From a virus: a DNA stretch of 26,876 nt. A model generated the notes under the pieces. The model ran no database searches and was not told the origin of the DNA. It saw nothing but the letters and a program-made list of their open reading frames with translations. The stretch covers positions 1 through 26,876 of IMG/VR virus record IMGVR_UViG_3300023116_003677; one strand, 5' to 3'. Positions 3,366 through 19,484 of this stretch are shown piece by piece. The translations under genes were made by a program, and so were the position numbers. The number at the start of each line of letters is the position of its first letter. Position 1 is the first letter of the stretch.

Positions 3366-3390
3366 AAAAAGGAGGCAGTTAAGCCTCCTT
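3366..3390 (-). terminator. rho-independent terminator after peroxiredoxin
   Basis: On the minus strand a perfect 8-bp stem (AAGGAGGC / GCCTCCTT, loop of 6) runs into TTTTT. It lies 30 bases past the peroxiredoxin stop and closes the hli/peroxiredoxin operon. Confidence 0.85.
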
Positions 3391-3419
3391 ACAAATCATA
3401 TCAAGTTTTAAGTGTACTG

Positions 3420-3962
3420 TCAAGCAGTAACGGGTTCCCGTGTTGCAGTCTTCACATATTCCAGGACTGCTTCAGGAGTGGTTTCTCCATAGGGATCGTC
3501 AGCAGCGTTATCACATCTGCCAGGTTCTTCAAACAGTTTCTCAATGATACAATTATCAACCACAGCAGCATAACGCCAGGAACGCTCACCAAAGCCAAGA
3601 TTAGACTTACGAACTAGTTGTCCCATTGCACGAGTGAAGTGAGCATTACCATCGGGGATGAGTTTTACTTTCTCAATACCCTGATCTTTTGCCCAGGCAT
3701 TCATTACAAAGCCATCATTAACAGAGATGCAGTAAATAGCATCGATACCAAGTTGAATAAACTCTTCATATCGCTCTTCAAATCCAGGGAGTTGATAAGC
3801 ACTGCAAGTAGGAGTAAATGCACCAGGCAAACTAAAAATAACCACACGCTTATCAGTAAAGAGATCCAAGGATGGTGTAGTAATAAACTCTCCATTCTCA
3901 CGGAATACAAATTCTACTTGGGGTACTTGATACTGTTCTTTACGCATTTTTACTTCTATCAT
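3420..3962 (-). CDS. peroxiredoxin, Prx5/type II (AhpC-TSA/redoxin family)
   Basis: The 180-residue enzyme would reduce hydrogen or alkyl peroxides in the cytoplasm. The peroxidatic motif PGAFTPTCS lies at 46-54 (C53). A second cysteine in AIYCISVND (C78) is 25 residues on, the same spacing as the peroxidatic and resolving cysteines of plant-type PrxII. The length matches this family. R126-R129-type residues (FGERSWRY) are also present. ATG at 3962 follows the upstream stop with one base between (TAAAATG). A second ATG at 3947 has AGAAG before it and could be the true start. It is the last gene of the hli operon, so it is likely made early with the Hli proteins to limit photo-oxidative damage during infection. 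The thiol donor is unknown and probably host glutaredoxin or thioredoxin. Confidence 0.9.
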   Translation of the reverse strand: MIEVKMRKEQYQVPQVEFVFRENGEFITTPSLDLFTDKRVVIFSLPGAFTPTCSAYQLPGFEERYEEFIQLGIDAIYCISVNDGFVMNAWAKDQGIEKVKLIPDGNAHFTRAMGQLVRKSNLGFGERSWRYAAVVDNCIIEKLFEEPGRCDNAADDPYGETTPEAVLEYVKTATREPVTA

Positions 3963-3963
3963 T

Positions 3964-4092
3964 TTAGTTAATTGGATTATAAGCGGGAATCATTTTACCC
4001 CCGCCAAAGTCATCATCATCGTCAGCACCATTGTTACCAAGGGCGCTGATGAGAATCCACATCCCTAGCATCATGGTTGCTAACAATAACAT
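3964..4092 (-). CDS. small membrane protein coupled to second hli (42 aa)
   Basis: The ATG shares its A with the hli stop (TGATG). The product has a hydrophobic helix (MLLLATMMLGMWILISALG) followed by GNNGADDDDDFGGG and a short tail ending AYNPIN. The acidic cluster would sit on one side of the thylakoid or plasma membrane. A longer frame in the same phase, reading through the hli gene, is not plausible because the hli frame there is clearly real. The function is unknown; coupling to an Hli suggests the two are made in equal amounts. Confidence 0.7.
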   Translation of the reverse strand: MLLLATMMLGMWILISALGNNGADDDDDFGGGKMIPAYNPIN

Positions 4093-4199
4093 CACCAGAT
4101 ACCAGGAATGATTTGGCCAGTAGCAGCATAACTGCCCATTGCGGCAACGATACCAATCATCGCTGCCCAACCATTAATACGTTCTGCTTTTTCGTTCAT
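4092..4199 (-). CDS. hli: high-light-inducible protein (Hli), 35 aa
   Basis: The whole protein is one chlorophyll-binding helix of the LHC/Hli type, MNEKAERINGWAAMIG followed by IVAAMGSYAATGQIIPGIW. The motif has Glu6 and Asn9 in place, but Trp stands where many family members have the Arg that pairs with the Glu; a subset of marine Hli proteins appears to share this. Hli proteins bind pigment in thylakoids, protect photosystem II and quench excess energy. AAGGAG lies 9 bases before the ATG. It is co-transcribed with the first hli, two small membrane genes and the peroxiredoxin. Confidence 0.9.
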   Translation of the reverse strand: MNEKAERINGWAAMIGIVAAMGSYAATGQIIPGIW

Positions 4200-4210
4200 T
4201 GTGTTTCTCC

Positions 4211-4297
4211 TTAATAAGTTTCAGAAAGTTTTTCTACAGAGTATGCAAGGATGCAAAAGAAAGTGACTGTGGTAACTGTCCAGACAACTGCTGCCAT
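4211..4297 (-). CDS. 28-aa membrane peptide coupled to first hli
   Basis: The ATG shares its A with the stop of the upstream hli (TGATG). The peptide starts MAAVVWTVTTVTFFCILAYS and ends VEKLSETY, so it is a single membrane helix with a short charged end. Its stop lies 11 bases before the second hli ATG, just ahead of that gene's ribosome-binding site. The same arrangement follows the second hli, which supports this tiny gene being real. It has no known function; it could be an Hli partner or assembly peptide. Confidence 0.65.
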   Translation of the reverse strand: MAAVVWTVTTVTFFCILAYSVEKLSETY

Positions 4298-4491
4298 CAG
4301 AAGACGCCGAAGTAAAGATTACCAGTCAGAGCATAAGAAAGGAATCCTGCGACGATACCCATCATAGCCCAGCGCCCATTAGTGCGCTCTTTAACCATGT
4401 TGGGAGTCAGCATACCGTAGTTCTCATAATACATTACGGGTTCTTTGGCAAACATGTTTTGCTGCCCGTACTCGTTAGTTGTTACAGTCAT
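4297..4491 (-). CDS. hli: high-light-inducible protein (Hli), 64 aa
   Basis: The C-terminal half carries the canonical chlorophyll a/b-binding-like helix, KERTNGRWAMMG at about 34-45 with Glu35, Asn38 and Arg40, followed by IVAGFLSYALTGNLYFGVF. The N-terminal 30 residues (MTVTTNEYGQQNMFAKEP...) are hydrophilic. I placed the start at the ATG at 4491 because AAAGGA lies just before it. The longer TTG start at 4518 would fall inside the promoter -10 box. It is the first gene of the operon and probably expressed early in infection to keep host photosynthesis running. Confidence 0.92.
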   Translation of the reverse strand: MTVTTNEYGQQNMFAKEPVMYYENYGMLTPNMVKERTNGRWAMMGIVAGFLSYALTGNLYFGVF

Positions 4492-4517
4492 TTCCTTTTG
4501 TAAAGATTTATAACACA

Positions 4518-4546
4518 ATTATATAGCAAATATAAAGGGGTGTCAA
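4518..4546 (-). promoter_or_regulatory. perfect-consensus sigma70 promoter for the hli/peroxiredoxin operon
   Basis: The minus strand carries TTGACA (4541-4546), a 17-base spacer, and TATAAT (4518-4523), a full match to the bacterial housekeeping consensus. The predicted start near 4511 gives a 20-base leader containing AAAGGA before the hli ATG. The -35 box lies in the loop and descending arm of the terminator of the gene upstream. Confidence 0.85.
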
Positions 4547-4553
4547 GCACCCC
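4531..4553 (-). terminator. hairpin terminator after the 64-aa membrane gene
   Basis: On the minus strand, GGGGTG-CTTGA-CACCCC (4537-4553) is followed by TTTATATTT. The T-run is interrupted, so termination may be partial. The hairpin contains the -35 box of the hli promoter. Confidence 0.6.
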
Positions 4554-4592
4554 CATGTTACGGTTTCCCGACAAATTGTTCATCAGATTACA

Positions 4593-5355: not shown

Positions 5356-5384
5356 ATCTTAAAACAACTTTAAGAATTTGTCAA
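5356..5384 (-). promoter_or_regulatory. sigma70-type promoter for the beta-barrel gene, overlapped by a late box
   Basis: TTGACA (5379-5384) and TAAGAT (5356-5361) are separated by exactly 17 bases. The -35 overlaps the stop codon of the glycosyltransferase operon's last gene. GATAAATA (5351-5358), a T4-late-like box, overlaps the -10. The gene could thus be transcribed both early and late. Confidence 0.55.
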
Positions 5385-6202
5385 GGGGTTGGGTTTTCCG
5401 TCCTCTTGGTGGCAGTGTTCTCTGTGATTCTGCCTAGGTAAGGATCATAGTTCATGTAGTCCTTAATGTCAATACTTGAACCGTTCTGTTCCCAGAAAGA
5501 AGATTGAGCTTGATAATTTCCTTTATGGAATGCATCAACATGCTCTGGGTGAATACTAGAACCCAATTCAGTTCTATAAAGAAGAAGAGGAATTGAGTAA
5601 GTATTACCCGAATTGTAGATTAAATCGTCTGCAACTGGACGTGGTTTACAACCATTATCAAGTTTATACTTATCTCCACGACAATGAAGCCTTACAAGTT
5701 TCTCAGCATGATATCTGTTGATTACATAACATGCTGTAGAGAAGTCATTAACAAACCTCTTATGAAGTTTGACATGAATATCTCCTGTACAAATAATAGC
5801 AATCTGAACTACATCATAATCATATGGAAAGTGTGCATAGAAATCAGTCCAAGTAAAGTTCCAGAAACGAACTAAATCTAGACTACAATCATCCTCCATG
5901 ATAATCGCATAAGGACTATCAGAGGTTTCCAGATAGTGTTTAATTGCTTTCAGGTGAGACGTTGTACATCCAATCTCCCCAGAAGTCATCATCTCTGGAT
6001 ATCGTCCAGAGATAATATCACTCAAGTCATCATCTCTACCATCATAGGCAGAGATACGCTCATAGTTTTCTACTTCCCAATACTTAAATTGGTTCTCCAT
6101 ATACTCACGTCTCTCTGGTTGTCCATCGAGATTGAGATAATAGATTGGCCCAATATTCTTAAGTTTGAATGTGGACTTATTTTTATCTAACAACTCATTC
6201 AT
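5381..6202 (-). CDS. glycosyltransferase family 25 (LPS/glycan) protein
   Basis: The 273-residue protein matches GT25 organisation: IYYLNLDGQPERRE at 20-33, GEIGCTTSHLKAI at 75-87, and the metal-binding acidic motif IIMEDDCS at 101-107. GT25 enzymes transfer hexoses, often galactose, onto LPS or protein-linked glycans from nucleotide sugars. It is the last gene of the long operon, starting with an ATGA overlap. The C-terminal 40 residues beyond the catalytic core are polar and unassigned. The donor and acceptor cannot be told from sequence. Confidence 0.85.
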   Translation of the reverse strand: MNELLDKNKSTFKLKNIGPIYYLNLDGQPERREYMENQFKYWEVENYERISAYDGRDDDLSDIISGRYPEMMTSGEIGCTTSHLKAIKHYLETSDSPYAIIMEDDCSLDLVRFWNFTWTDFYAHFPYDYDVVQIAIICTGDIHVKLHKRFVNDFSTACYVINRYHAEKLVRLHCRGDKYKLDNGCKPRPVADDLIYNSGNTYSIPLLLYRTELGSSIHPEHVDAFHKGNYQAQSSFWEQNGSSIDIKDYMNYDPYLGRITENTATKRTENPTP

Positions 6203-7056
6203 AGAACTAACCAGTCAGGACAATAAAGATCTTTAGTGTCTTTGTCTGCGTATGCAGGGCCAAACCACATCTTAGGAGCGATAACCTTTTTGTTTGGGTT
6301 TGAAATTAACCAAGCACCCCACCAACTCAGACTACTATTAGCAATAATAGCATGAGAACATAAAGACATCAAGCACAAGTCAGCGTATGGTGTATAAGAA
6401 CCATCATCATACTTTTCTTGTGGTTCTGAAATTAAGAATCTATCACCAGAGAAGAACTCTTGTTCTTTAACCCACTCAGGAGAGTCAGAGAATACAACAA
6501 CTGGTTGATTATCATCAAACTCAGCAAGTGCTCTTTCATAATACTCAAGAGGTTGAACAGGGTGCATTGAACCACACTGAGTATAACTCCACTTGAATCC
6601 ACGCGGATCTACAAGATTAGGATCTCCACGACGAACATGAAGCATAATAGGCTCTTGTCCCTCAAGAGTATCCATCATCTCTTTACATGGGCCAAGATGC
6701 TCATCATGGAAAGTGTAATCTTTACGAATCTCATCAGAAATATGCTTAAAGTATTTTTCTGATTGGAAGAATCCATGAAGACTTACATTGTCAGGACACT
6801 TTTCTACAAGTTCATCATCAAAGTGAAAGAATCTCTCTTGAACATATTGATAATGTTCCATGACATTTAGATTTTCATCCTTCACAGATTCTAGTTTGAA
6901 ACAACTGTGAAGACTGTAGTTCTCAATACCTTTACGATTAAATGGAGGAATACACCATTCATAACCATGCTTGGCAGCAATGCCTCTTAGAGCAGCATAT
7001 TCAAACATCTGATTGCCAAGTCTACCAAGACTTCCAATTTGATTAAACGCTAACAT
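6199..7056 (-). CDS. GT11 alpha-1,2-fucosyltransferase-like protein
   Basis: The GT11 landmarks are in order in 285 residues: GRLGNQMFEYAALRG at 11-25, the donor-binding HVRRGD at 140-145, and NSSLSWWGAW at 240-249, followed by VIAPKMWFG. The family transfers fucose (or a related GDP-sugar) in alpha-1,2 linkage to a galactose acceptor. Because the operon begins with a GDP-mannose 3,5-epimerase-like gene, GDP-L-galactose is also a possible donor. It overlaps the upstream gene by 14 bases and the downstream gene by 4. Confidence 0.9.
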   Translation of the reverse strand: MLAFNQIGSLGRLGNQMFEYAALRGIAAKHGYEWCIPPFNRKGIENYSLHSCFKLESVKDENLNVMEHYQYVQERFFHFDDELVEKCPDNVSLHGFFQSEKYFKHISDEIRKDYTFHDEHLGPCKEMMDTLEGQEPIMLHVRRGDPNLVDPRGFKWSYTQCGSMHPVQPLEYYERALAEFDDNQPVVVFSDSPEWVKEQEFFSGDRFLISEPQEKYDDGSYTPYADLCLMSLCSHAIIANSSLSWWGAWLISNPNKKVIAPKMWFGPAYADKDTKDLYCPDWLVL

Positions 7057-7858
7057 ATTTCTTTAGATATTCTTGCTGTGAATAGTATTCAATAAGACTT
7101 TCTTTACTCATTGATTGAATCTTTTCCCACTCCTGCATGTTTGATTGCATGTGTGGATTGGAGAACCAAGAGTTTTCTCCTCTTGCATGTTCTAAATGAT
7201 AAACATAATTTTCGATTCTTCCAACATTATATCCTAATGTATTGAACCTGTAAAATCTTTCTTTATCTTCTGGAGCATAAGCTTTGAAGTTTTCATTCTC
7301 CAGTCCGCCATCAATATAAACTTGACGATTAAAGAACTGAACCCAACCAAAATCTGAGGTATGAAGATTAGAAACTTCATCAAGGTAATCGTAGTTTTTT
7401 GTTTGCAAAAATCTAGAGACTACAGAATCATCTGCCTTCACTTGCTTCTGATACATTCCACTTCCGTAAGGATACACAACGTCATGTGTCCCATCGATGA
7501 TTCTACGATATGCAGTTTCATATGATTCTAATGGGAGAATAGCATCACAATCATAGTTAACAACTACCTCTGTATCTGATTCCATAATCATTTCATTTAG
7601 AACCCTCTGCCTATGAAACAGAGGTTCATCACTTTTCTCAAAGATATGCTTTACGTTAATATCAACTTCAAGAATATCTTCTAAGATAGGAAGAGCATCT
7701 CTTTCAAATACAGATTCTGAATCTACTTCTTTAATTATAATATTAGTATCAAAGTTTTCTAAAAGAAATGCTGTGCTGGTAATGACATTCCTTAGCCTAT
7801 CCGAAGATTCAATACGAATAGGGATAACGAATGTTGCTTTTGATAAATCAATTCTCAT
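7043..7858 (-). CDS. GT-A fold glycosyltransferase (GT2/GT27-like)
   Basis: The protein opens with a beta-strand typical of GT-A enzymes (MRIDLSKATFVIPIRIESSD). It has an acidic metal site in VVNYDCDAILP near residue 105 and a second conserved region, GGLENENFKAYAPEDKERF, near 185. That region resembles the acceptor-side motif of GalNAc/galactosyltransferases. I start at ATG 7858, which overlaps the upstream stop by 11 bases; the upstream TTG at 7879 is less likely. The substrates are unknown. Confidence 0.75.
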   Translation of the reverse strand: MRIDLSKATFVIPIRIESSDRLRNVITSTAFLLENFDTNIIIKEVDSESVFERDALPILEDILEVDINVKHIFEKSDEPLFHRQRVLNEMIMESDTEVVVNYDCDAILPLESYETAYRRIIDGTHDVVYPYGSGMYQKQVKADDSVVSRFLQTKNYDYLDEVSNLHTSDFGWVQFFNRQVYIDGGLENENFKAYAPEDKERFYRFNTLGYNVGRIENYVYHLEHARGENSWFSNPHMQSNMQEWEKIQSMSKESLIEYYSQQEYLKKYVSV

Positions 7859-8606
7859 CAGGATACCTTCTATCAACAAAAAATTCTGAATGCTTGTTAT
7901 AGATATGCTCTAGTTCCTTCTTATTTACCAACCAAGTTCTTGAAGAATCTGAGATAGTTGCATCATATTTTGTGTGTGCAGAACTTGTGCGATTGTCATG
8001 TTCTCTGTTTGCAATGAGAACATCTTCAACGATAGCAGGAAGTCCGAATTGAATTCTCTGTCTATGGTATAACTCAGTATCAACAAAAAGATTTAAATCG
8101 TGATCCATTCCCAAGTAAGAACCTTTGAGAAATGCTGTGCAAGAGGGACTACCTAAAAGATTATCTCCCTCAAGCATTTTTGGTGTCCATCTAGGAACAC
8201 AATCTCTATGAGTTTCAACACCATCTGTAGTGTGAGTAAACCCATGAAGCAACCACTTCACACCAGGAACAAAGGCTTCATTAATCTTTTCAAGTGCTTG
8301 ATTATTGACAAAGATATCATCTTGATAGATTAATTTTAAAATTTTTCCTTCTGCATTTTCAAGGGCACAATCTGTATTTGGTGCTAGATATCCACGTCCA
8401 TTTGGATTACTGATATAAGTAATCTCAAAGTCATAAGGACAGTTACGACACCATTCCATAATGACATCATCTTTACTATGATCCGAAATGACTACATCAA
8501 AATCCTGAAAAGTTTGACATGCAAGAGAATCAAAGAGTTCTGTCAAATACTGAACACCCTTTCCATTGTATTCATAAGTTGGAATACATACACTAATTTG
8601 CGACAT
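7848..8606 (-). CDS. family 2 glycosyltransferase
   Basis: This is a 252-residue GT2 enzyme. The N-terminus ISVCIPTYEYNGKGVQYLTE and the strand FDVVISDHSKDD form the nucleotide-binding half. LKLIYQDDIF near 90-99 supplies the DxD-like metal site (QDD). A later conserved region, SPSCTAFLKGS, follows. No membrane segment was seen, so it would be a soluble transferase. The ATG at 8606 lies in the stop region of the upstream GT11 gene (14-base overlap). Donor and acceptor are unknown. Confidence 0.85.
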   Translation of the reverse strand: MSQISVCIPTYEYNGKGVQYLTELFDSLACQTFQDFDVVISDHSKDDVIMEWCRNCPYDFEITYISNPNGRGYLAPNTDCALENAEGKILKLIYQDDIFVNNQALEKINEAFVPGVKWLLHGFTHTTDGVETHRDCVPRWTPKMLEGDNLLGSPSCTAFLKGSYLGMDHDLNLFVDTELYHRQRIQFGLPAIVEDVLIANREHDNRTSSAHTKYDATISDSSRTWLVNKKELEHIYNKHSEFFVDRRYPDEN

Positions 8607-9408
8607 CAATATACTCCCATTCGTTTACAAACAAGTCAGTAGCATCTTCACCTTTAGCACCAAACCATAGTTTGGGGCCAATCACATTATTGTGTCCTGC
8701 CAACCATGCTCCCCACCAAGAGAAAGTAGAGTTAGCAATAATATTATAGTTACACATAGACATCAAACACATATCATGAATGTTGTCACTCTCAGAGATA
8801 AAGAATCTATCATCAGCAAAGAACTCATGCCCAAATGCCCACTGAGAATCATCAGTGAATACAAATACAGGAATGTCCTTTGGAAGTTTGGAGAGTGCTT
8901 CCTCATAATAACTCATAGGAAGAACAGGGTGAAAATCTGATTTATGAAGATAATCAGTCCTACGAATGTGTAGTGAGATTGCTTCAGAAAAACCTTCATC
9001 AACTACAATCTCTTTCCAGATATCATCACATAGTTTCTTTACTTCATCACGAAACTCAAAGTCCTTACGAAGTTCTTCTTCAATATGAAAGAAGTATCTT
9101 TCTGTTTGAAAGTAACCATAAAGATTTACATTGTCAGGACAAGTTTTTACAAGTTCTTTATCATACCTAAAAGAACTTTCCTGTTTATATCCTGCTTCTA
9201 ACATACCAACATTCTTAACTCCAGGCATCTTAAATGCCATGAAGAGTTTGTGTTGTTGCTCCTCATCAACAAATTCATCGTCGGTTCTAGGCCCATCAGG
9301 AATGATAAAATCATATCCACGAGCTGCAGCAATTCCTCTAGTTGCTGCATATTGGAACATTTGATTACCAAATCTTCCGTTCTTTCCAATGTGATTATGT
9401 CCAATCAT
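8593..9408 (-). CDS. GT11 alpha-1,2-fucosyltransferase-like protein (second copy)
   Basis: The 271 residues follow the same pattern as the 6199-7056 paralogue: GRFGNQMFQYAATRGIA at 11-27, HIRRTDYL at 147-154 (the GDP-fucose-binding His-x-Arg-Arg motif), and NSTFSWWGAW at 226-235. Shared blocks such as CPDNVNLYGYFQTERYF show that the two genes arose by duplication and then diverged. It begins with an ATGA overlap. The two paralogues probably act at different positions of the same glycan. Confidence 0.9.
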   Translation of the reverse strand: MIGHNHIGKNGRFGNQMFQYAATRGIAAARGYDFIIPDGPRTDDEFVDEEQQHKLFMAFKMPGVKNVGMLEAGYKQESSFRYDKELVKTCPDNVNLYGYFQTERYFFHIEEELRKDFEFRDEVKKLCDDIWKEIVVDEGFSEAISLHIRRTDYLHKSDFHPVLPMSYYEEALSKLPKDIPVFVFTDDSQWAFGHEFFADDRFFISESDNIHDMCLMSMCNYNIIANSTFSWWGAWLAGHNNVIGPKLWFGAKGEDATDLFVNEWEYIDVAN

Positions 9409-10106
9409 GCTAGTTCAACTCCAGGGGGTAATCTATAATGGAATCCAAATGGTGTTACTCCTTCACACTCAGGCACTCTGGTTTCCTGTGAGAACCTAAC
9501 TGCTACATCTACAGGAGCATATTTGCATCCTTGCTCAATAAAAATGTGTCTATTATGGACGCACACATTACCGTCCTCATGATAGTTTACCACACCTTCA
9601 GGCATCCAGTAAAAATCACTATTATTAGTTTCCCAAGGAACTTCTACCTTTGTAGGAACCTCAAGAAACTTTTTACTTCTCAATGAGAATCCACCATTAC
9701 CTACTCGGTGGTGATTACCAAATGGATCGATATAAGCATCCTCAACATATGCCCAAGGAGCACCAATGTAATCATACTCAAGCCATGCATTATCCCACTT
9801 GTCGGGGTACAAAACAAATCCATCTGGTTGAACAAGTAGACAATGTGTTGTATCTACATGTTCATGAAGGTGATAAACAACATAGTAATTATAATCATCA
9901 TAATTTTTGATATCACGAGCAGGAGTTTCCATCACGATACCATCATTCTCAAGAGAACGATTGTTGTCAATCTGTTCTTGAGTGGTGATTATTTTTACAT
10001 TACCAAAGTTGATACCTGCCATACTTGTATAGACACCCCGAAGAGTGCCACTCAAGTCATCTGTAGTGTCTACAGAAATTAATGTAACATCAGGCAAATC
10101 AATCAT
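9405..10106 (-). CDS. DUF5672-type putative glycosyltransferase
   Basis: The 233-residue protein has LLVQPDGFVLYPDKWDNAW, then YDYIGAPWAYV, then VGNGGFSLRSKKFLE. This series is characteristic of the DUF5672 family found in bacterial and phage glycan clusters and thought to be GT-A-like. It overlaps both neighbours by 4 bases. The family assignment rests on these motifs by eye. Enzyme activity is inferred from the family and context. Confidence 0.7.
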   Translation of the reverse strand: MIDLPDVTLISVDTTDDLSGTLRGVYTSMAGINFGNVKIITTQEQIDNNRSLENDGIVMETPARDIKNYDDYNYYVVYHLHEHVDTTHCLLVQPDGFVLYPDKWDNAWLEYDYIGAPWAYVEDAYIDPFGNHHRVGNGGFSLRSKKFLEVPTKVEVPWETNNSDFYWMPEGVVNYHEDGNVCVHNRHIFIEQGCKYAPVDVAVRFSQETRVPECEGVTPFGFHYRLPPGVELA

Positions 10107-10993
10107 AAGTCACCTTCATAAATGTTTGATGTTTTCTTATACTCTTCCCATTCTACCCTACATTCTTCAGGTGTAAAGAGTTCACCATCCCTATCCATAT
10201 AATAGGTTGGGTAACTATATATGCTACACCCAAGACTCCACCATCCTTGAGACAAATTATGGTGGAACCAGTACTTAGGAGCAATACAATACTCTAGAGT
10301 TTCACTTGTCCATAATGGAAAACAAGAGAATGTTGAAGTTGTGCAGATAACATTTCTTGCATTCTTGATAGCCACATAATCCCATGCAACATCAACATGG
10401 TATGCAGGGTACTCTGGCAACATCCTATTGGCAGTTTTTACATCATCAGTGACAATGCAGAACTCCATGTTGGGATTGTATTCACGCATTCTTTGGATTG
10501 CTTTAGTCCAATAACTACGGGGAACAAATCCACCAGCATTACCAACCATGTCACCACCACGGAAGTTCATGACACAAATGTTCTTTCCGTTTGTGTCCAT
10601 ATGTTCGTGCTCTGGACGAACTTTCAACCAATCTTTAACCAAATCAAGTCTGTCGCCAAAGTAATCTTCTGATTGAAGATTGCCATAGATTATATGATTA
10701 TCTGGAATTGATAAAAGTTTTTTATCAGTTAGACGAATATCTGTCCTCAGATACTTGTCAGTATGAAATCCATGACGATACTCATCATATCTGGTTAAAT
10801 TATCAGGAACTTCTTTACCATAATCAAGGTTCATAAAATAGAAACCTTTCTTATTGACTCTTGAGTCTCCAGCACTCTGAAGTCCAGTGATACCAAAGTC
10901 ATACCCAAGCCTGTGGGCAAGCATTCTGATTGTCACATAACAAAACAGTTGATTGCCCAGTCCTTGTCCATGAAGAAACTCAGTTGCTAGCAT
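10103..10993 (-). CDS. divergent GT11-like fucosyltransferase
   Basis: The 296-residue protein keeps the GT11 skeleton with altered motifs: GQGLGNQLFCYVTIRMLAHRLG at 9-30, NFRGGDM at 143-149 in place of HxRRxD, and TSTFSCFPLWTS in place of NSxxSWWGAW. A GYDFGI stretch and a YWFHHNLS region align with the paralogues. Loss of the His and one Arg in the donor site may mean another GDP-sugar is used. It overlaps its neighbours by 14 and 4 bases. Confidence 0.75.
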   Translation of the reverse strand: MLATEFLHGQGLGNQLFCYVTIRMLAHRLGYDFGITGLQSAGDSRVNKKGFYFMNLDYGKEVPDNLTRYDEYRHGFHTDKYLRTDIRLTDKKLLSIPDNHIIYGNLQSEDYFGDRLDLVKDWLKVRPEHEHMDTNGKNICVMNFRGGDMVGNAGGFVPRSYWTKAIQRMREYNPNMEFCIVTDDVKTANRMLPEYPAYHVDVAWDYVAIKNARNVICTTSTFSCFPLWTSETLEYCIAPKYWFHHNLSQGWWSLGCSIYSYPTYYMDRDGELFTPEECRVEWEEYKKTSNIYEGDL

Positions 10994-12275
10994 ATTTCTT
11001 TACTACACTTTCAATATAACCAATCATCTTATCGTTGATTGTTGGAGAGCAACCAAGGAAGAAAACAAGATCCAGAACTTGATTAGCATTCGGATATTTG
11101 TTTGCATCATCAAGGTGAGAGTATCCAGGGTGTAGAAGAATATTTCCTGCAAAGTAATTTCTAGTTTGAACTTTATTATCCTCAAAGTGCTTAACAAGAG
11201 AATGTTTGAGTTCTTTGTTTCCACACAAAACAGGAACACCAAACCAACTTGTTTCTGCGTTTGATTGCTCACTCATAACACGAACTCCAGGGATACCCTC
11301 AAGGATTCTATGAAGTTTGTTTTTATTGGCACGACGCTTGGCATGAATCTCTTCAAACTTAAGCAGTTGAACTGAGCCAACAGCACCTTGCATGTCCAGA
11401 GGTTTGAGATTATATCCCATGTTGCCGAACACATATTTGTGATCAACAATGTCATGATACTTTTCCAACCACTTATCAAACCTACGTCCACACACACCAT
11501 TAGTGAGTAGATTCTGCTGTCCAACACAATAACAACCACGTCCCCACCAAGCAAAAGAACGTGCCAAATCAACGATTGCTTTAATGTTGGAAGACACCAT
11601 GCCACCTTCAACGGTGCAGAGGTGGTGAGCAGGATAGAAGGAGCAAGATGCTGCAACAGCACGATCTGTCAGATACTTATCATTCCACTTGCTACCAAGA
11701 CTATCACAATTGTCTGCAATCAGTTCCAAATTATGCCTATCAAGAATGTCATAAAGAGCATCCATATCATAGGGATTGCCCAATACAGGAGAAGAGAATA
11801 CTGCTCTAGTTTTATCAGTGATTTTTTCTTCAACCTGAGACAAGTCCCAGTTCAAATCATCCCAAGTAATATCAACAAATACTGGTTTCAGTCCTGCCTG
11901 GACAATAGGAGCCACAGTAGTAGCGAAACCACAAGCGCAAACAATAATTTCATCACCATCGTTCCACCCAAAGTATTTTTTTAGAGCAGCAATCATTACT
12001 AGGTTCGCGGAGGAACCAGAGTTAACCATTACAGAATGCTTGAATCCAAACTTCTGAGAAAACTCATGCTCAAACTTATTAACTTTCTCGCCAGAAGACA
12101 ACCACTTACCCTTCATAATTGAATGAATGAGTTCCCTTGCTTCTAGTTCGTCCCAATAAGGGCCAGAATAGTAGACAGGTTTTCCTTCTTCCCAATCTTT
12201 GTTAGCAATAAAAGGAAAGATGTCATCATCCATTTCCTTTGCAGACTCGATAAAAGTATCAATTAGTTGGTACAT
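10980..12275 (-). CDS. PLP/[2Fe-2S] sugar 3-dehydrase, E1/RfbH type (DegT/DnrJ/EryC1 superfamily)
   Basis: The 431-residue protein has the aminotransferase fold-I pattern (NSGSSANLVMIAALKKYFG, VDITWDDLNWD, ADNCDSLGSK). The PLP-lysine is replaced by His in SFYPAHHLCTVEGG (H217), the mark of 3-dehydrases (RfbH/AscC and ColD) rather than aminotransferases. C190, C248, C250 and C262 give C-x57-C-x1-C-x11-C. The E1 enzyme of Yersinia has C-x57-C-x1-C-x7-C for its [2Fe-2S] cluster and a His 27 residues after the first Cys, as here. E1 removes the 3-hydroxyl of CDP-4-keto-6-deoxyglucose on the way to 3,6-dideoxyhexoses, with a reductase partner (E3). No reductase is visible in the window, so a host one would be needed. 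Confidence 0.88.
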   Translation of the reverse strand: MYQLIDTFIESAKEMDDDIFPFIANKDWEEGKPVYYSGPYWDELEARELIHSIMKGKWLSSGEKVNKFEHEFSQKFGFKHSVMVNSGSSANLVMIAALKKYFGWNDGDEIIVCACGFATTVAPIVQAGLKPVFVDITWDDLNWDLSQVEEKITDKTRAVFSSPVLGNPYDMDALYDILDRHNLELIADNCDSLGSKWNDKYLTDRAVAASCSFYPAHHLCTVEGGMVSSNIKAIVDLARSFAWWGRGCYCVGQQNLLTNGVCGRRFDKWLEKYHDIVDHKYVFGNMGYNLKPLDMQGAVGSVQLLKFEEIHAKRRANKNKLHRILEGIPGVRVMSEQSNAETSWFGVPVLCGNKELKHSLVKHFEDNKVQTRNYFAGNILLHPGYSHLDDANKYPNANQVLDLVFFLGCSPTINDKMIGYIESVVKKYASN

Positions 12276-13081
12276 AATTCTTTAATGATTTCTTCTAATG
12301 AAATTGATGGAGTAAATCCAAGTTGAGTTAATCTTGAGGTATCAAGCCAAAAATCTTTTGCTTGCACTATCTTATGAAACTCTGGTGCTTCTCTAGATTT
12401 TATCTGAGAGTTTGAATTTAAATATTCCTTTGCCAAACTTATTATATCACCAATCCTTGTTGGTTGTCCACTACCAATATTATAAACTTTATTAATGTCT
12501 CCACTATCACATATAAGTTTTATTGCTCTACAGACATCATTCACATGCATCACATCACGAATTGGTGTACCTTCATCATACAAATAAACATCCTCATTAT
12601 TTTTGAGTAGTTCAATCATATAACTCAAAGCATTTTTCTTGGCAGAAAGTTTTCCATCACCTTTTCCAAGAACATTACAAAGTCGCATGATTCTATAATT
12701 GACTTTATATGTCCTGCAGAAGGAAATCAATAAATCCTCTGCTGCTTTCTTTGTGATTGAATAAAAACCAGTTGGGTTGCAATGATATTCTTCCTTGGCT
12801 GGAAGATCAGTTTCACCATAAACAAACCAAGAACTAATAAAGTTAAATGTAATATCAGATTCTCTACAATAATCTAATACTTCACAAAGAACTTTTAAGT
12901 TTGTATCTACATCCAAAGTGATATTTGAATGAACATTGTAATTATCTACCGTTGAAATAAGATAAAGGATATCTTTTGACTTTGGTTTTCTTTCTTCTCT
13001 ATCTTGCTTTAAAACAGATTCTGGATAAAGATTACAAAATCTACTACCCACAAATCCCGAAGCACCATATACAGATATCAT
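12263..13081 (-). CDS. NAD-dependent sugar epimerase/dehydratase (extended SDR)
   Basis: This is an extended short-chain dehydrogenase of 272 residues. The Rossmann motif is GASGFVGSRF at 5-14, the catalytic Tyr and Lys are in GFYSITKKA near 129-137, and NIGSGQP lies in the substrate-binding half. The N-terminal half is shorter than in GalE, with no long insertion. It overlaps the dehydrase gene by 13 bases and probably acts on the same nucleotide sugar, as a 4-ketoreductase, epimerase or dehydratase. Which one is not clear. Confidence 0.85.
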   Translation of the reverse strand: MISVYGASGFVGSRFCNLYPESVLKQDREERKPKSKDILYLISTVDNYNVHSNITLDVDTNLKVLCEVLDYCRESDITFNFISSWFVYGETDLPAKEEYHCNPTGFYSITKKAAEDLLISFCRTYKVNYRIMRLCNVLGKGDGKLSAKKNALSYMIELLKNNEDVYLYDEGTPIRDVMHVNDVCRAIKLICDSGDINKVYNIGSGQPTRIGDIISLAKEYLNSNSQIKSREAPEFHKIVQAKDFWLDTSRLTQLGFTPSISLEEIIKELCTN

Positions 13082-13776
13082 AGTTTCTCCTGCAAATCTT
13101 CAGTCCACATCATATAAAGTAACCTCTCAATTAGATATGACTCCCCAGATGTACTCTGGAACTCTTCAGGTGGCTCGTATGAAACAAAGAACTGAAGTTT
13201 TTCATAGAATTGTTTACTAAATTTGAGAATGTTTGCTCTGGGTACAACATAATTGCCACCAGGAGCAAACCTATTATAAGGAAAATTGGGCGGATTTACA
13301 AACAATTTATTCAACATTTCAGGGAAAGTTGCAAAGTGTCTGGTATAAATTGTTTGATTTGATACTGCTTCCCATGTTGGTTGAATAAATCCACCACCAT
13401 TAACTACAAAGGAAGTGGATTCATGAAACCTTTCAATAGGCAAGAAATACTCTGCAGTAAGAGCACGATAGAACCTTTCACTAGTTGTATAGTACTCTGC
13501 TCCTCCTCTATCTTCAGGACGTTGAAACATATTTCCTTTAATGAAAATACAAACATCAGGAAGAGTTTCATAATGTTCTACAATATATCGCATAATATCG
13601 TAGATATTCTCACCAACATTGGGAGAACGAATGCTCTCACCAAGATGACTCCAGTCCTTTACTTCATCACTTCTATCATAGATGATAGTATTCTCGGGAG
13701 AGAATCCATAATCATATGTTGTTGAGAGCCACTCTAGATCAGAATTATGATTTGATACTACTAAGGTTTTTTCCAT
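13078..13776 (-). CDS. hypothetical protein, DUF3431-like, in glycan operon
   Basis: The 232-residue soluble protein starts MEKTLVVSNHNSDLEWL. Two regions recall the DUF3431 family found near glycosyltransferases: PNVGENIYDIMRYIVEHYETLPD (residues 52-74) and FAPGGNYVVPRANIL near 170-184. The family match is from memory of these motifs and is not firm. ATGA and 16-base overlaps tie it to the operon. It is a likely glycosyltransferase or glycan-related protein by context only. Confidence 0.6.
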   Translation of the reverse strand: MEKTLVVSNHNSDLEWLSTTYDYGFSPENTIIYDRSDEVKDWSHLGESIRSPNVGENIYDIMRYIVEHYETLPDVCIFIKGNMFQRPEDRGGAEYYTTSERFYRALTAEYFLPIERFHESTSFVVNGGGFIQPTWEAVSNQTIYTRHFATFPEMLNKLFVNPPNFPYNRFAPGGNYVVPRANILKFSKQFYEKLQFFVSYEPPEEFQSTSGESYLIERLLYMMWTEDLQEKL

Positions 13777-14684
13777 GTTTCAAAAAAATTATAGATGTCA
13801 AGTTTGGATAAGTCCATTCTTTGTGCATCAATGAAGAGTTGATTGTTTTCAGTTAGCAACTCTTCTGTAACTTGAGAGTAGTCATCAACAAAAAGAACAG
13901 GATAATCTTTAAACAAATGTTCAAGGTATGGAGTGCGTTTCATAACTGGCACTCTACGCATGTAGATAGTTTCCCAGTTTCTATGACAATCAATTGCATT
14001 TCCTCTAGGACAGAGAACAAATTTACAACTTCTCATCCTCTCAAGGAACGTTGAATAATCAACTCTCCCCTCGTCTACAACTGTCCACGAATAATTCTTA
14101 AATCTATCTCTAAGTCCTTTTCTTTCTGAATGCGAATCTTCACTAATGCTCACATGTAAAAGTTTGTGTGCATCAGACACACTCACTTTCATTTGTTCTT
14201 TAAGAATTTCAATTCTATTGTCTGCGGGAGTCATTCTTCTCTGAACACCATAAGGTGCTGCTACTACCTTTCCACCATGAGATACTGCATTAACAGCACA
14301 TATACGGACAACATTATCTGGAATGGATTCAAAAATATACTCATCAGTAGAAGTATCTTCTAGATTAGTAAAAATAATAAACTTCATGTCAGGGAAGTTC
14401 GCACAGAGTTTTAGAAGATTACTTCTCTGCATCATTGCACTAACAATTGGCCAATCCTGCGGTTTTACATCTTCTATTTTTCTTTCATACAAACGAATGT
14501 TGTCAATAAAAAGAGTCATATAATCACGACTCTTCTTGACTTCAAACATCTTAGAAATGAACTCTGTGTTAAACAGATTTGCATCTTTCATGAAGTGAGA
14601 ATAAATTCTTCCCCATTGTCCAGATTGCTCACCAAACGAATAATCACAGAGTTGAGACAATAAAACTCCTTCAATCAGTTCCAT
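13761..14684 (-). CDS. exostosin-like putative glycosyltransferase
   Basis: The C-terminal half of this 307-residue protein has FLERMRSCKFVLCPRGNAIDCHR, then NWETIYMRRVPVMKR. This follows the exostosin/GT47 pattern, where a 'KF-LCP-G' strand is followed by a residue-rich donor site and 'E-i--g-iPVi'. The N-terminal half is unassigned. There is no membrane segment. It overlaps the GT17 gene by 10 bases. The activity is inferred; a GT-B nucleotide-sugar transferase is most likely. Confidence 0.6.
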   Translation of the reverse strand: MELIEGVLLSQLCDYSFGEQSGQWGRIYSHFMKDANLFNTEFISKMFEVKKSRDYMTLFIDNIRLYERKIEDVKPQDWPIVSAMMQRSNLLKLCANFPDMKFIIFTNLEDTSTDEYIFESIPDNVVRICAVNAVSHGGKVVAAPYGVQRRMTPADNRIEILKEQMKVSVSDAHKLLHVSISEDSHSERKGLRDRFKNYSWTVVDEGRVDYSTFLERMRSCKFVLCPRGNAIDCHRNWETIYMRRVPVMKRTPYLEHLFKDYPVLFVDDYSQVTEELLTENNQLFIDAQRMDLSKLDIYNFFETWKKP

Positions 14685-15532
14685 GGTTTAATAAGATTGG
14701 TATATTTGTCTTGATTATTCCGAATATATTCAGGATAGGATTCATCAATAGGAACAGTTTTAATACCAATGTTTCTACCAAAAGGATCAATACCTTTTTC
14801 AATCCTCTCTTCTGCACTTGCAATATTGTGTGCAGTGTTGTTCTCAGTGTGCTCGTAAGAAGCAAGTTTTAATTTATAATTCTCAGCATCACCTAGGAAA
14901 CTAAAGTGCCAACCACCGTTCTCAATTCGATATGCATTGACATGATTTCCACGATGCTCATCAATCGTAGTTCCTTTTAGATATTTCCAAGTGCAGAGAC
15001 GAGTTCCCATCCAATCATCTTGATATAGGAAGTTCAGTTTAAAGTAATATGCATTACAAAGAGTGACATAATGATTATCAGGATTAAACCAAGAGGTATC
15101 TTCCAATACTAGTGGATTGATAATTTCATCAGCATCACTTGTCAGAATTAAATCTCCATCCTCTGGGCCTGCTTTTTCAATACCAAAGCAACTAGCATTT
15201 CGATTATAAACTGCTCGCTGGAAACGGATAGGAAGATTGATAAAAGGAGTTCCGTAAGGATCGATATCTTTATATGCAATATGAAACTTAGATCTCTCTA
15301 ACATATGAGAGAAGTCATTTGGAATCTCTTCAGTAATATTGTGAATAATTTTATGATTCCATTTAGCAAATCTACTCTTATTCTCCTCATAGTAAAGTGG
15401 TTTGGGATTGCCACTAACAGTCCAGGGAGATTCTGTAAGAACAAAGTAATCCACAACATCGTTGAGGATATTAAGTCTCATCTCAAGCAAGTCAAGTTCA
15501 TTAAAAAAGATGAACGAATCAAATACTCTCAT
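14675..15532 (-). CDS. glycosyltransferase family 17 protein
   Basis: The 285 residues match GT17 from the first residue: MRVFDSFIFFNELDLLEMRL, then DVVDYFVLTESPWTVSGNPKPL. Later come the metal-site motif LTSDADEIINP near 130-140 and GGWHFSFLGDAE near 207-218. The named GT17 enzyme is beta-1,4-mannosyl-glycoprotein beta-1,4-N-acetylglucosaminyltransferase, but bacterial and phage members probably use other acceptors. It is soluble here, lacking the eukaryotic membrane anchor. It overlaps the upstream gene by 14 bases. Confidence 0.9.
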   Translation of the reverse strand: MRVFDSFIFFNELDLLEMRLNILNDVVDYFVLTESPWTVSGNPKPLYYEENKSRFAKWNHKIIHNITEEIPNDFSHMLERSKFHIAYKDIDPYGTPFINLPIRFQRAVYNRNASCFGIEKAGPEDGDLILTSDADEIINPLVLEDTSWFNPDNHYVTLCNAYYFKLNFLYQDDWMGTRLCTWKYLKGTTIDEHRGNHVNAYRIENGGWHFSFLGDAENYKLKLASYEHTENNTAHNIASAEERIEKGIDPFGRNIGIKTVPIDESYPEYIRNNQDKYTNLIKPWN

Positions 15533-16322
15533 TTTGATACTCCAAAATAAATTTACGTTGTTCTTCGTTGTTTCTCCAAGTTTTTAACTCAATATAATTC
15601 CCAAGTTCCATCATATTAACCTCAACACCATCAGTCACAATTAACATCTCTGGATTTAAATGCTCATCAAGATAAAGATTTGTACAATAAAACTTTTGAA
15701 TGTTTGATGAACATAAAGCAGCTGCAACAGCAAATGTTCCAGTACCAGATGATGCCAAGTTCTTTGCTCTCATAAGAGTTGCAAAGTCTTCAGCAACCGA
15801 TTTAGATTGAACTGTTACCTTTTCAATTTTTCTAAGTTCGTCAACAATTGGATTATAGTTATCTGGTTCCGTTACCACAATAACTTTCTCATATTCTTCA
15901 ATCAGAGTTAGATAATAACAAAGAGGATTGGGAACATAATCATGAGGAGGATTATGTTCATGTGCAAAAATATCCCCACTGCGAATATGAATGACTATAG
16001 TATCCTCATCAAATGCATCATCTACAGAAAACTTAAATGCAGGAACAACATACTCTTTTGCAACCTGCCCAATGTTTTTATAAAGGTAGTTGATATTAAT
16101 ATCAAAGTCTTTATTGCTGGTGTTGTAATGGAAGAACCTATTTGGCCTTACCATCGTTTTTTCTTCTTGATTGACAGCAAACATTTCAATCAATTCATGA
16201 GGTGGAGTAAAGAACCCATCACCAGATAAAGAAGAATAAATTATACCATTACAAATTTGCTGTATGTTGTTTCCCAATCTACCATACCAATGAGAAACTG
16301 TATTTAATATCCTACTACTCAT
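15519..16322 (-). CDS. fucosyltransferase-fold protein (GT11-related)
   Basis: The 267-residue protein begins with SHWYGRLGNNIQQICNGIIY (10-29), matching the 'GxLGNQ' opening of GT11/GT23-type transferases. HIRSGDIF at 112-119 replaces HxRRxD, and ASSGTGTFAVAAALCSSN near 190-207 replaces the usual Trp-rich motif. It is the most divergent of four such proteins in the cluster. The ATGA overlap with the methyltransferase gene upstream couples its translation. The donor sugar is unknown. Confidence 0.7.
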   Translation of the reverse strand: MSSRILNTVSHWYGRLGNNIQQICNGIIYSSLSGDGFFTPPHELIEMFAVNQEEKTMVRPNRFFHYNTSNKDFDININYLYKNIGQVAKEYVVPAFKFSVDDAFDEDTIVIHIRSGDIFAHEHNPPHDYVPNPLCYYLTLIEEYEKVIVVTEPDNYNPIVDELRKIEKVTVQSKSVAEDFATLMRAKNLASSGTGTFAVAAALCSSNIQKFYCTNLYLDEHLNPEMLIVTDGVEVNMMELGNYIELKTWRNNEEQRKFILEYQNESI

Positions 16323-16945
16323 ATCAACTCTTGCCTAATATAAAAAGCATCACCCCAGGTTCCCCCCATCCAGTCAGTTTCTACTCTAATCATATCATAC
16401 TCTTTAAGAAATTCATCAATTTCTTCAATTAAAGCATTGTTTTCATACACCTCAGTATTATTAACTTCAGTATAAACACAATCAATTTTTTCTAAAGTTT
16501 TTCTTGCTCCTTTCAAAACCTCAAGTTCATATCCTTGAGTATCCATATTCAGAAAATTAAAGTCATGGTTCTCTGGAATCACAGAATCCATTGTTACCAT
16601 TTCAACGGTTTCTTTTCTATCAAAGATAATATTTGGATATTGCTCTAAAACATGTTTAGGATTCAAAATAGAACTGCAGAGTCCATCATCATTACATGTC
16701 ATCTCTACAGTTTCACAACTATTTCCTAAAGCCTTATTAATCAGAGTTACATTATCAAATCCAACTGACTCAACAACTGCAGACAATTTTTGAAATGGAA
16801 CTTTCTGGGGTTCAAATACAATCAGGTTGGTAACATTGTTCTTTTTATATGTTTCCATCTCCTGCCCAATGTGGCCACCGACGTGAATCACACCAGTGAC
16901 TTTTACACCATACTGTTTAACTAACGAAGCATAACTTAAAAGCAT
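16319..16945 (-). CDS. FkbM family methyltransferase
   Basis: This is a compact 208-residue SAM-dependent methyltransferase. Motif I is GVIHVGGHIGQEMETY at 18-33, followed by the acidic LIVFEPQKVPF at 41-51. The FkbM core then has DFNFLNMDTQGYELEVLKGA near 128-147. FkbM-type enzymes O-methylate sugars, among other substrates. Within the glycan operon, methylation of a sugar hydroxyl is the likely role. It starts 3 bases after the previous stop, the only non-overlapping junction of the operon. Confidence 0.85.
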   Translation of the reverse strand: MLLSYASLVKQYGVKVTGVIHVGGHIGQEMETYKKNNVTNLIVFEPQKVPFQKLSAVVESVGFDNVTLINKALGNSCETVEMTCNDDGLCSSILNPKHVLEQYPNIIFDRKETVEMVTMDSVIPENHDFNFLNMDTQGYELEVLKGARKTLEKIDCVYTEVNNTEVYENNALIEEIDEFLKEYDMIRVETDWMGGTWGDAFYIRQELI

Positions 16946-16948
16946 TTA

Positions 16949-17638
16949 TCAACCTCCAAAGATACATTCCGTTGACTCTTTTGAGAGTCTACTTTTTTGA
17001 ACAAACTTTTCTACAATCTCTGCATCAACTACAGTTGGATCGACGTACCAATCTTCATATGGATTATTCTGATTAGCAACATTACGAACAACTAGTTGAT
17101 AACCTTTTGATAGAAGAATCTCCATTGCTTCTTCTCCAGCGTCTGGGCCATCCTTATACACGTCTGTTTCATAAGTGATTACAGAGAAACGATAATCATC
17201 CAGAGGAAGTGCTTTCAGAGCATTCAGAGTTTGCCATGCTGGTTCAATATCAACCTGAAGATAATCAATCTGTCTAGGATAATTCCTTTCTTCAAACAAT
17301 TTTTTATAATCAAAGGTTGTTGCATCAGCACAGATACACTTGTTCTCTCTCAGAGAATTGAATTCACCAATCTTAGATTCATCAAGTTCAAAGGAAACTC
17401 CATTCCAACCAAACTGTGTTTCAAGGAGATATGAATTGCTAATGATTACTGGATGATCGGCACCAATCTCAACATATGTTCCGCTCCTTTTTCCATCTAG
17501 AATACTCAAAGCAAACATATCCTGAAATGCCTGAGAATAATTATTCTCAATGTCTTCAACTCCAGGAAACTTGTAACGAAGTTTTTCTAAATCGGATTTA
17601 AAATACCGATTGCAATCTGGGAATGTAAATTCAGTCAT
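16949..17638 (-). CDS. FkbM-like SAM-dependent methyltransferase
   Basis: GTYVEIGADHPVIISNS gives the SAM-binding loop at about residues 54-70, and WNGVSFELDESK follows with the acidic residue that binds the ribose. QIDYLQVDIEPAWQTLNALK near 120-139 matches the FkbM 'D-D-eG-E---l' region. The length is 229 residues from ATG 17638, which shares its A with the upstream stop (TGATG); the in-frame TTG at 17650 is less likely. Two methyltransferases in one operon suggest two methylated positions, or two sugars, in the final glycan. Confidence 0.8.
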   Translation of the reverse strand: MTEFTFPDCNRYFKSDLEKLRYKFPGVEDIENNYSQAFQDMFALSILDGKRSGTYVEIGADHPVIISNSYLLETQFGWNGVSFELDESKIGEFNSLRENKCICADATTFDYKKLFEERNYPRQIDYLQVDIEPAWQTLNALKALPLDDYRFSVITYETDVYKDGPDAGEEAMEILLSKGYQLVVRNVANQNNPYEDWYVDPTVVDAEIVEKFVQKSRLSKESTECIFGG

Positions 17639-18630
17639 CAGTTTTTCCAATAATCGTAAATGTCTTTTGTGATTTCATAATCCATATTCTTTACCTTTCT
17701 GTTTGGTTGTTTTATAGCCCAAACAAACATAGAATCAATCAACTCTTCAAGGTTAGTTTCATCCTTAAAGTCTAGCATAGTTTTTGCTTTTGTATGATCG
17801 CAATAGGCATGTTTAACCTCATGACGTGGTTCTCCATGTTCAATCGGAACTTCATACCCATACTTTCTACCAATCTTTTGAACTGCTTCAGCAACCTCAT
17901 TTAAACTGAAATGCTTGTCTGCACCAATGTTAAATGTTTCGCCATCATGTTCTGTCAAAAGTCTATCAAATGGTTCCATGTAATATTTGATATCAGAGAA
18001 CGCACGAGTCTGTTCCCCATCACCATATACAAGGATTGGTTGTCCATTCAAAGTTTTGCGAATAAAGATACCAATTACATTACGATACTTATCCCAAATG
18101 TTTTGATAGATACCAAGAACATTATGAGGACGAACAATATTATATCGAAGTCCAAACTGCTCATGAGCCAGTTTCAAATCACACTCTACAGCATACTTTG
18201 CAATACCATAAGGATCAATAGGTTGAGGACGCTTATCTTCAGTGAACGGAGGTTCTTGTTCACCATAAACTGCCATGCTTGAAGTAAAGATAAACTTAGT
18301 ATTATGAGCAACACACTCATTAATCAAATTAGCAGAGCAGATAAGGTTGTTTCTATAGTTGAAATTGCGAATAAAAGGAGACAAACCCTCAGCAGCATAA
18401 GCGGCAAAGTGAAAAAGAACATCTGGTTTATGCTCTTCAAACAACTCTACAACTTTCTTTCTTCTTTCTAAGTCAAACTTTGCAAAGGTAAACTTCTCTC
18501 CTTTGGGCAGAAATGCTTTATACCCTCCAGAGAGATCATCAATACCAATAACTTCATGGCCATTAGCAAGTAAGTGTCTTGTGTAGTTTGCGCCAAGCAA
18601 ACCAGCACATCCAGTTACAAAAATTTTCAT
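17638..18630 (-). CDS. NAD-dependent epimerase, GalE/UDP-glucose 4-epimerase-like
   Basis: This is an extended SDR of 330 residues. The Rossmann motif is VTGCAGLLGANYTRHL at 5-20, followed by IDDLSGG. TSSMAVYG supplies the catalytic Ser region, and DPYGIAKYAVE the Tyr-Lys pair, near 140-150. The later VYGDGEQTRAFSDIKY and FNIGADKHFSL match GalE-type sugar epimerases. The length agrees with GalE. It overlaps both neighbours by one base (TGATG). The exact sugar (UDP-Glc/GlcNAc or another) is not fixed by sequence. Confidence 0.88.
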   Translation of the reverse strand: MKIFVTGCAGLLGANYTRHLLANGHEVIGIDDLSGGYKAFLPKGEKFTFAKFDLERRKKVVELFEEHKPDVLFHFAAYAAEGLSPFIRNFNYRNNLICSANLINECVAHNTKFIFTSSMAVYGEQEPPFTEDKRPQPIDPYGIAKYAVECDLKLAHEQFGLRYNIVRPHNVLGIYQNIWDKYRNVIGIFIRKTLNGQPILVYGDGEQTRAFSDIKYYMEPFDRLLTEHDGETFNIGADKHFSLNEVAEAVQKIGRKYGYEVPIEHGEPRHEVKHAYCDHTKAKTMLDFKDETNLEELIDSMFVWAIKQPNRKVKNMDYEITKDIYDYWKN

Positions 18631-19484
18631 CAGTATCCATACTCCTTTTTCATTTCAGCGAAAACTTTTGCGATTCCATCACCTAGATTTGTTTTTGGCA
18701 ACCACCATCCTTGAATATAGTTGTCTGCTTCGTTTCTCTTATCCATCTGAACACTATCTTTAGCTAATCCAGGTTTGATTTTTACATCATACTTTCCAAT
18801 CAAATTGAATTGCCCCTGAATAATCTCAGCAACGCTTTTAATCGATTCTGAGCGGAAGGAAGTAATGTGAAGAGGATCTGTTGATTTGAAGTCTGCATAA
18901 TGTTCCATTACAGTTTCAAGTGCTTCACAACAATCTTCAGCGTAGAGGAACTGTCTTTCTTCAGTACCATCAGTGAGCATTTCAAACTCACCTTCCTCAA
19001 ATCCACGTTTAATAAAGTCGGTGATTACATGAGATTTTTCATGATCTTTCTCAATACCATAGACATTCCAGAACTTAACAATCAGTCCGCCAAGATTTTG
19101 GGTGTACATTTCACCAACACGCTTCATAACTCCATATGGTGAGTAAGACATGTTACTCATCTGAGAGGAAGCAAACACAAATGGCTTACGGTATTCTTGC
19201 AAATACTGGAATACATTTGCCATCATCCGCGTATTGTTATTGATAAACTCATAGGTATGCTGATACTTTTTCAGATACCTAGAACCACCAACATCAAAAG
19301 CAAGGAAGAATACAAAGTCAGCAAGACGAATGTCATGCATGAGTTTTGTATTAGGAATCGTTCTCAAATCATACTCTTCGCCATTAGTAACATCAAACTC
19401 AGTTACTTCATGTCCTTTTGTACGTAGATAATCTGTCAGATAGGCACCAATTTGCCCCGCAGAACCAAGGATTAATACTTTCAT
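18630..19484 (-). CDS. NAD-dependent sugar epimerase/dehydratase
   Basis: This is an extended SDR of 284 residues. The nucleotide-binding motif GSAGQIGAYLTDYLR lies at 7-21, and ASSQMSNMSYSPYGVMKRVGE near 105-125 carries the Ser/Tyr/Lys catalytic set. LTDGTEERQFLYAEDCCEA is the usual 'G-g-q-Rdfiyv-D' sugar-binding stretch. Many residues after the Rossmann motif differ from GalE, so it is a separate specificity from its two neighbours. ATGA overlap upstream and TGATG downstream. Confidence 0.85.
   Translation of the reverse strand: MKVLILGSAGQIGAYLTDYLRTKGHEVTEFDVTNGEEYDLRTIPNTKLMHDIRLADFVFFLAFDVGGSRYLKKYQHTYEFINNNTRMMANVFQYLQEYRKPFVFASSQMSNMSYSPYGVMKRVGEMYTQNLGGLIVKFWNVYGIEKDHEKSHVITDFIKRGFEEGEFEMLTDGTEERQFLYAEDCCEALETVMEHYADFKSTDPLHITSFRSESIKSVAEIIQGQFNLIGKYDVKIKPGLAKDSVQMDKRNEADNYIQGWWLPKTNLGDGIAKVFAEMKKEYGY

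Follow-up and report, generated by a model that had tools for sequence, protein, structure and literature searches.

A stretch of DNA of 26,876 bases from the IMG/VR collection (the window), derived from a virus of photosynthetic bacteria, carries between 4546 and 3366 on the minus strand a cassette of two high-light-inducible (Hli) proteins, a Prx5-type enzyme and two micropeptides that is very probably dedicated to photoprotection, most likely sparing the light-harvesting apparatus of the host while it is infected. The cassette itself is already known; the apparent novelty within the sources searched lies in a 28-aa micropeptide (p28) and in the link between a 42-aa membrane protein (p42) and the short hli. 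The photosynthesis genes of cyanophages have been heavily studied, yet in S-PM2 and S-SM2, where p28 stands behind hli and exactly fills an unannotated gap, no separate gene has been called for it, and if p28 is translated, the existing transcriptome and proteome sets of infected Synechococcus have been analysed without it.

Gene content and order of the cassette

The unit opens with a promoter of full sigma70 consensus, TTGACA-17-TATAAT (4518-4546, minus strand; 12/12 match). It is followed on the same strand by hli1 (4297-4491), which encodes an hli03-type high-light-inducible protein of 64 aa (phrog_178, E=2.9e-25); p28 (4211-4297), a single-TM micropeptide of 28 aa (MAAVVWTVTTVTFFCILAYSVEKLSETY); hli2 (4092-4199), which encodes a short Hli of 35 aa (phrog_178, E=4.2e-19); p42 (3964-4092), which encodes a TM protein of 42 aa; and prx (3420-3962), which encodes a Prx5/type II peroxiredoxin of 180 aa. 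An intrinsic terminator hairpin, AAGGAGGC-TTAACT-GCCTCCTT with a T-run (3366-3390, minus strand), closes the unit; it was missed by the consensus scanner and has a folding energy of -14.2 kcal/mol by RNAfold. The promoter, the order of the five genes and the terminator had all been described in an earlier note on this DNA, together with the fusion of both hli stop codons to the next ATG as TGATG, and each of these elements is present, with 1-nt stop/start overlaps at hli1/p28 and at hli2/p42. That description was accurate as far as it went; it left the strand unstated and did not mention that hli2 is of the short type. Overlapping stop and start codons are common elsewhere in this compact window, so that coupling alone is weak evidence of partnership.

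A BLAST search of phage records returned 371 matches, nearly all of them from Synechococcus and Prochlorococcus phages, and in annotated relatives (e.g. DSL-LC02, S-SZBM1, S-WAM1) hli, ferredoxin (petF), small unknown proteins, a short hli and peroxiredoxin form one block. The commonest order in the viral-contig loci is hli1 p28 petF hli2 prx (68 loci), followed by hli1 p28 hli2 prx (14), hli1 p28 petF hli2 p42 prx (12), hli1 petF p28 hli2 p42 prx (10) and the window's own order, hli1 p28 hli2 p42 prx (8), these being counts of contigs picked by similarity to the window and not of independent lineages. In relatives petF sits between p28 and hli2, and the window is without it; set against the orders in relatives, the order of the window identifies it as the petF-less variant of the hli03/petF/peroxiredoxin cassette of T4-like cyanophages. 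Both tiny ORFs are conserved in this comparison of synteny across cyanophages, and the lack of conservation that the earlier note had named as counting against its reading did not occur. Directly upstream of the cassette (5381-20527, minus strand) is a long run of genes whose translations, judged by eye, are glycosyltransferase-like and sugar-nucleotide/epimerase-like; LPS clusters near hli03 have been reported for some cyanophages (PMC3037559).

The p28 micropeptide and the p42 membrane protein

The comparison gathered 137 instances of p28 (65 distinct proteins), of which 131 are exactly 28 aa long; ATG is the start codon in every instance except one. The consensus is MTExIFTxTSVAFFVLLxYSVEQLSETY, in which the C-terminal ETY is conserved and the ending TY is near-fixed. 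When viral contigs were searched with nothing but the p28 alignment, without regard to gene context, at least 530 stretches were confirmed; in the best 80 of these at least 530, the nearest gene upstream is hli1 in 76, the gene that follows is petF in 49 cases and hli2 in another 21, and the length is 28 aa in 79. The junction of hli1 and p28 takes the form TGATG in 39 of the 137 instances and has a gap of 9-14 nt in another 67, and p28 is sometimes found directly behind petF or hli2 instead of hli1. The proposal that each Hli is made together with a tiny partner of its own is thus upheld insofar as the micropeptides are conserved and tied to hli, but a one-to-one relationship overstates the case, and the TGATG coupling recurs in relatives at a part of the hli1/p28 junctions only.

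By tblastn, at least 152 GenBank phage records contain p28, and no Prochlorococcus host appears in the name of any of them. In every GenBank record inspected, these being part of the 152, p28 has no separate CDS; in the cases checked, the feature under the match is the neighbouring hli, and in S-RIM4 a different frame is called at the p28 site. A profile search of 26 whole records (W01-W26) gave convincing scores in 8 phages of a set of 10 and in 3 of a set of 16. By this search p28 is present in 11 of 20 non-Prochlorococcus phage records, absent from Syn9, Syn19, S-SSM7, S-ShM2 and others, and missing in each of the six Prochlorococcus phages tested (P-SSM2, P-SSM4, P-HM1, P-HM2, P-RSM4, P-SSM7), which hints at a host-specific role. 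Because p28 is missing from many phages that bear hli1, it is not required for Hli function. It has no match in Pfam, PHROGs, NCBIfam or PDB, and no description of it was found in the literature; scans of bacterial and archaeal genomes with the p28 and Hli1 alignments found no relative, a weak result since the Hli1 query also matched none. Annotation has apparently overlooked p28, which appears to be new within the sources searched.

Other small proteins occupy the same position in some loci. A 27-aa ORF of S-TIM61 (MALLATVAILMATFAGAAFLTQDGSET), annotated in the slot coupled to hli1, was compared with p28, but its sequence spoke against homology, and the p28 profile gives no match at its position. 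Membrane peptides of 25-27 aa are found in the TGATG-coupled slot behind hli1 in S-TIM61 (L264:1404-1487) and in one contig (L132), and in other loci the slot behind hli1 is taken by a membrane protein of 62-73 aa (phrog_961).

The p42 protein consists of a TM helix, an acidic DDDDD linker and a GGGKMIPAY tail, and matches the profiles phrog_905, phrog_7843 and phrog_17393, all of unknown function, with E values from 1.4e-6 to 9e-4. A profile of the p42 family gathers approximately 53 distinct members that have the membrane helix, the acidic run and a GGxMxP tail, and in 44 of the 53 distinct cases the start codon lies at -4 to +1 of the stop codon of a short hli. In the distant phage P-HM1 a family member is located directly behind hli04; the family also occurs elsewhere in the genome, e.g. 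in S-MbCM6. No match was obtained by tblastn with p42, though the profile finds relatives; tblastn serves short acidic peptides poorly. The systematic link between p42 and the short hli appears to be new within the sources searched.

Conservation of this kind makes it highly probable that p28 is a real translated protein. That p28 acts with the Hli proteins is an evenly balanced proposition, and p42 has about the same chance of acting with the short Hli. An unlikely though not negligible alternative is that the micropeptides are directed at something else (photosystem I, cytochrome b6f, NDH-1 or the docking of ferredoxin) and share only a transcript with hli, p28 possibly acting with PetF. The position of petF within 14 nt behind p28 in most loci, and of p28 directly behind petF in some, would fit this alternative, with the window as a derived petF-less case; but p28 persists in cassettes without petF (the window, S-PM2, S-SM2), hli is adjacent to p28 except in a few contig-edge or displaced loci among the best 80 of at least 530 stretches, and by sequence p28 matches none of the known small subunits of the photosystems, b6f or NDH, whether as families or as solved chains. 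It is improbable that p28 and p42 are leader-like ORFs for reinitiation between hli and the next gene, setting protein ratios with the peptides as by-products: translational coupling would account for the 1-nt overlaps or short gaps that flank p28, whereas a pN/pS of 0.34 over 80 distinct DNAs and codon-position entropies of 0.74, 0.30 and 1.27 indicate selection on p28 at the protein level, its length is fixed, its C-terminal ETY is conserved and its place in the operon is not constant. Reading frames that arose by chance in compact phage DNA would be very short, like these ORFs, and missing from nearly all annotations, and overlapping genes are common in the window, but this explanation is scarcely credible for 65 distinct proteins, nearly all of 28 aa with an ATG start and also recovered blind to gene context, at sites where the other forward frames are open in just 3 of 80 and 6 of 80 cases, or for a p42 whose GGxMxP tail is kept in distant phages. 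If p28 does act with the Hli proteins, it may be a virus-specific single-helix subunit, encoded by many Synechococcus phages and missed by annotation for its size, that during infection joins the two phage Hli proteins on photosystem II of the host (or on the CP47 module) as a viral equivalent of a photosystem assembly subunit; this more specific proposal is possible but less likely than not.

The Hli pair, the peroxiredoxin and transcription

The Hli1 protein of the window keeps the canonical ExxNGR motif (as ERTNGR) and has an N-terminal arm, QNMFAKEP, that resembles those of HliA, HliB and Psb34. Such an arm, N[x][FWY]AxEP, characterises 148 of 156 distinct Hli1; all 135 distinct short Hli2 lack it, and the arginine of the chlorophyll-binding motif is kept in 153 of the 156 Hli1. 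The N-terminus of Psb34 resembles that of HliA/B and probably occupies the same binding site at CP47/PsbH (PMC9458560). The Psb34 model NF033486 matches ten of ten sampled Hli1 (best E=1.6e-5) below its curated cut-off; with the window protein scoring 22.4 bits (E=8.4e-5) against a cut-off of 45 bits, and with ExxNGR present, assignment of Hli1 as Psb34 was rejected in favour of Hli. A search of the PDB with the Hli1 arm only gave no match. Hli2 has no N-terminal arm, and its gene has a ribosome-binding site of its own (AAGGAG). Its motif in the window is ERINGW, with NGW in place of NGR; the residue at this position is W in 71 and R in 62 of the 135 distinct short Hli2, and only one armed Hli1 has NGW. 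Without the usual arginine, pigment binding by an NGW form of Hli2 is uncertain. In the record of S-SM2 a short hli of 36 aa (L255:1397-1507) without a gene call lies next to the p42-like gene T4-GC_1257. The presence of the arm in Hli1 and its lack in Hli2 suggest that armed Hli1 and armless Hli2 resemble the quenching pair of HliA/B and HliC on CP47.

The active site of prx, PGAFTPTCS, conforms to the PGAFTPxC pattern of Prx5/type II enzymes. The protein matches phrog_2281 ('peroxyredoxin antioxidant') with E=6.5e-74, and its best solved relatives are HI0572 (PDB 1nm3, E=9.7e-45) and chains of human Prx5. It is a member of the Prx5/type II family and a predicted peroxidase. With two Hli proteins and a Prx5-family peroxiredoxin identified by family matches, the notion of a self-contained photoprotection package is supported; the wider idea, which adds two Hli-linked tiny proteins, is upheld in part and gains strength from the comparative data.

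A promoter with at least 11 of 12 consensus positions precedes hli1 in 73 of 97 distinct upstream sequences, almost always 25-28 nt before the ATG, and this recurrence at a nearly fixed distance makes the cassette promoter very likely to be functional. A 12/12 match is not unique to this site, being found also at 23023 and 22562 in the window, and sigma70-consensus promoters are widespread in cyanophage genomes of this kind. The designation of the operon as early-type is not supported, given these widespread promoters and the RNA-seq results with the Prochlorococcus phage P-HM2, in which all auxiliary metabolic genes, hli labelled among them, fall exclusively in the middle cluster (PMC5082946); PMC5082946 also describes expression timing as conserved across the T4-like cyanophages.

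The cassette promoter is part of a composite element (4554-4518, minus strand) with a terminator-like hairpin, GGGGGTG-CTTGA-CACCCCT (4536-4554, minus strand; -11.7 kcal/mol), which has most of the -35 hexamer (TTGAC) in its loop and is followed by a T-rich stretch that also serves as the promoter spacer. At this site 52 of 115 distinct upstream sequences have stems of 6 bp or longer, compared with 8 of 575 shuffled controls, and the arms of the hairpin vary among relatives with pairing kept. Similar elements are found at other gene boundaries of cyanophage genomes (also loci L305, L308 and L309); thus, the combination is a general device and not specific to hli. The hairpin is likely to be the terminator of the upstream gene. 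At the other end of the cassette, a second promoter, TTGACA-17-TATGAT (3423-3395, minus strand; 11/12), overlaps the prx stop codon, so that the cassette unit may not be the sole transcript there. This promoter has the terminator hairpin at about its start site (3423-3366, minus strand), and the pair recurs in several relatives with differing hairpin arms; its candidate purposes are a short RNA or a 5' hairpin of the next transcript. In many relatives prx is followed by hairpins with T-runs whose arm sequences are different.

Proposed mechanism and comparison with known systems

The best explanation as a whole, which is favoured on balance, combines a photoprotection cassette, an Hli pair on CP47 and micropeptide helpers. 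A single sigma70-driven transcript, probably of the middle phase, would carry the cassette. In photosystem II that is being assembled or has been damaged, CP47/PsbH would be the docking site for the HliA/B/Psb34-like N-terminus of armed Hli1. Armed Hli1 would pair with armless Hli2 as host HliA/B does with HliC, and the resulting dimer would bind chlorophyll and carotenoid and dissipate energy. The single-helix membrane peptides p28 and p42, presumably translated right behind the hli genes, would take their place in the membrane next to the two Hli proteins and stabilise or tune this pair, in a role comparable to that of Psb35, the host protein that keeps Hlips stable on the CP47 module (PMC9458560); by this analogy a Psb35-like role is possible but doubtful. 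The Prx5-type enzyme would clear the peroxides that arise when electron transport keeps running in the light although carbon fixation by the host has been switched off. The armed and armless Hli pair and the two hli-linked micropeptides thereby constitute a testable model of photosystem II upkeep during infection.

The likeness of p28 and p42 to host Psb35 is one of proposed role only, that of a small membrane partner of Hli. The entries phrog_905, phrog_7843 and phrog_17393 have the TM helix, acidic run and GGxMxP tail of p42, and the library gives no link to a short hli. One armed Hli, with an N-terminus like that of HliA/B and Psb34, and one short armless Hli recall the arrangement of HliA/HliB and HliC on the CP47 module of Synechocystis (PMC9458560, PMC12142464); as a difference, phage Hli2 is only 35-40 aa long and has NGW for NGR in half of its distinct forms. 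The closest known system is the hli03/petF/peroxiredoxin region (T4-GC_267 and its neighbours; DSL-LC02, S-SZBM1, S-SCSM1, S-WAM1). Unlike that region, the window is without petF and without the protein of approximately 88 aa of the T4-GC_41 type, and has p42 between hli2 and prx. Like that region, it combines hli1, a short hli and a Prx5-type antioxidant in one block near a consensus promoter; as in DSL-LC02, the cassette of the hli03 region often adjoins glycosyltransferase genes, and many known phages with this region do have p28, though not as a separately called gene.
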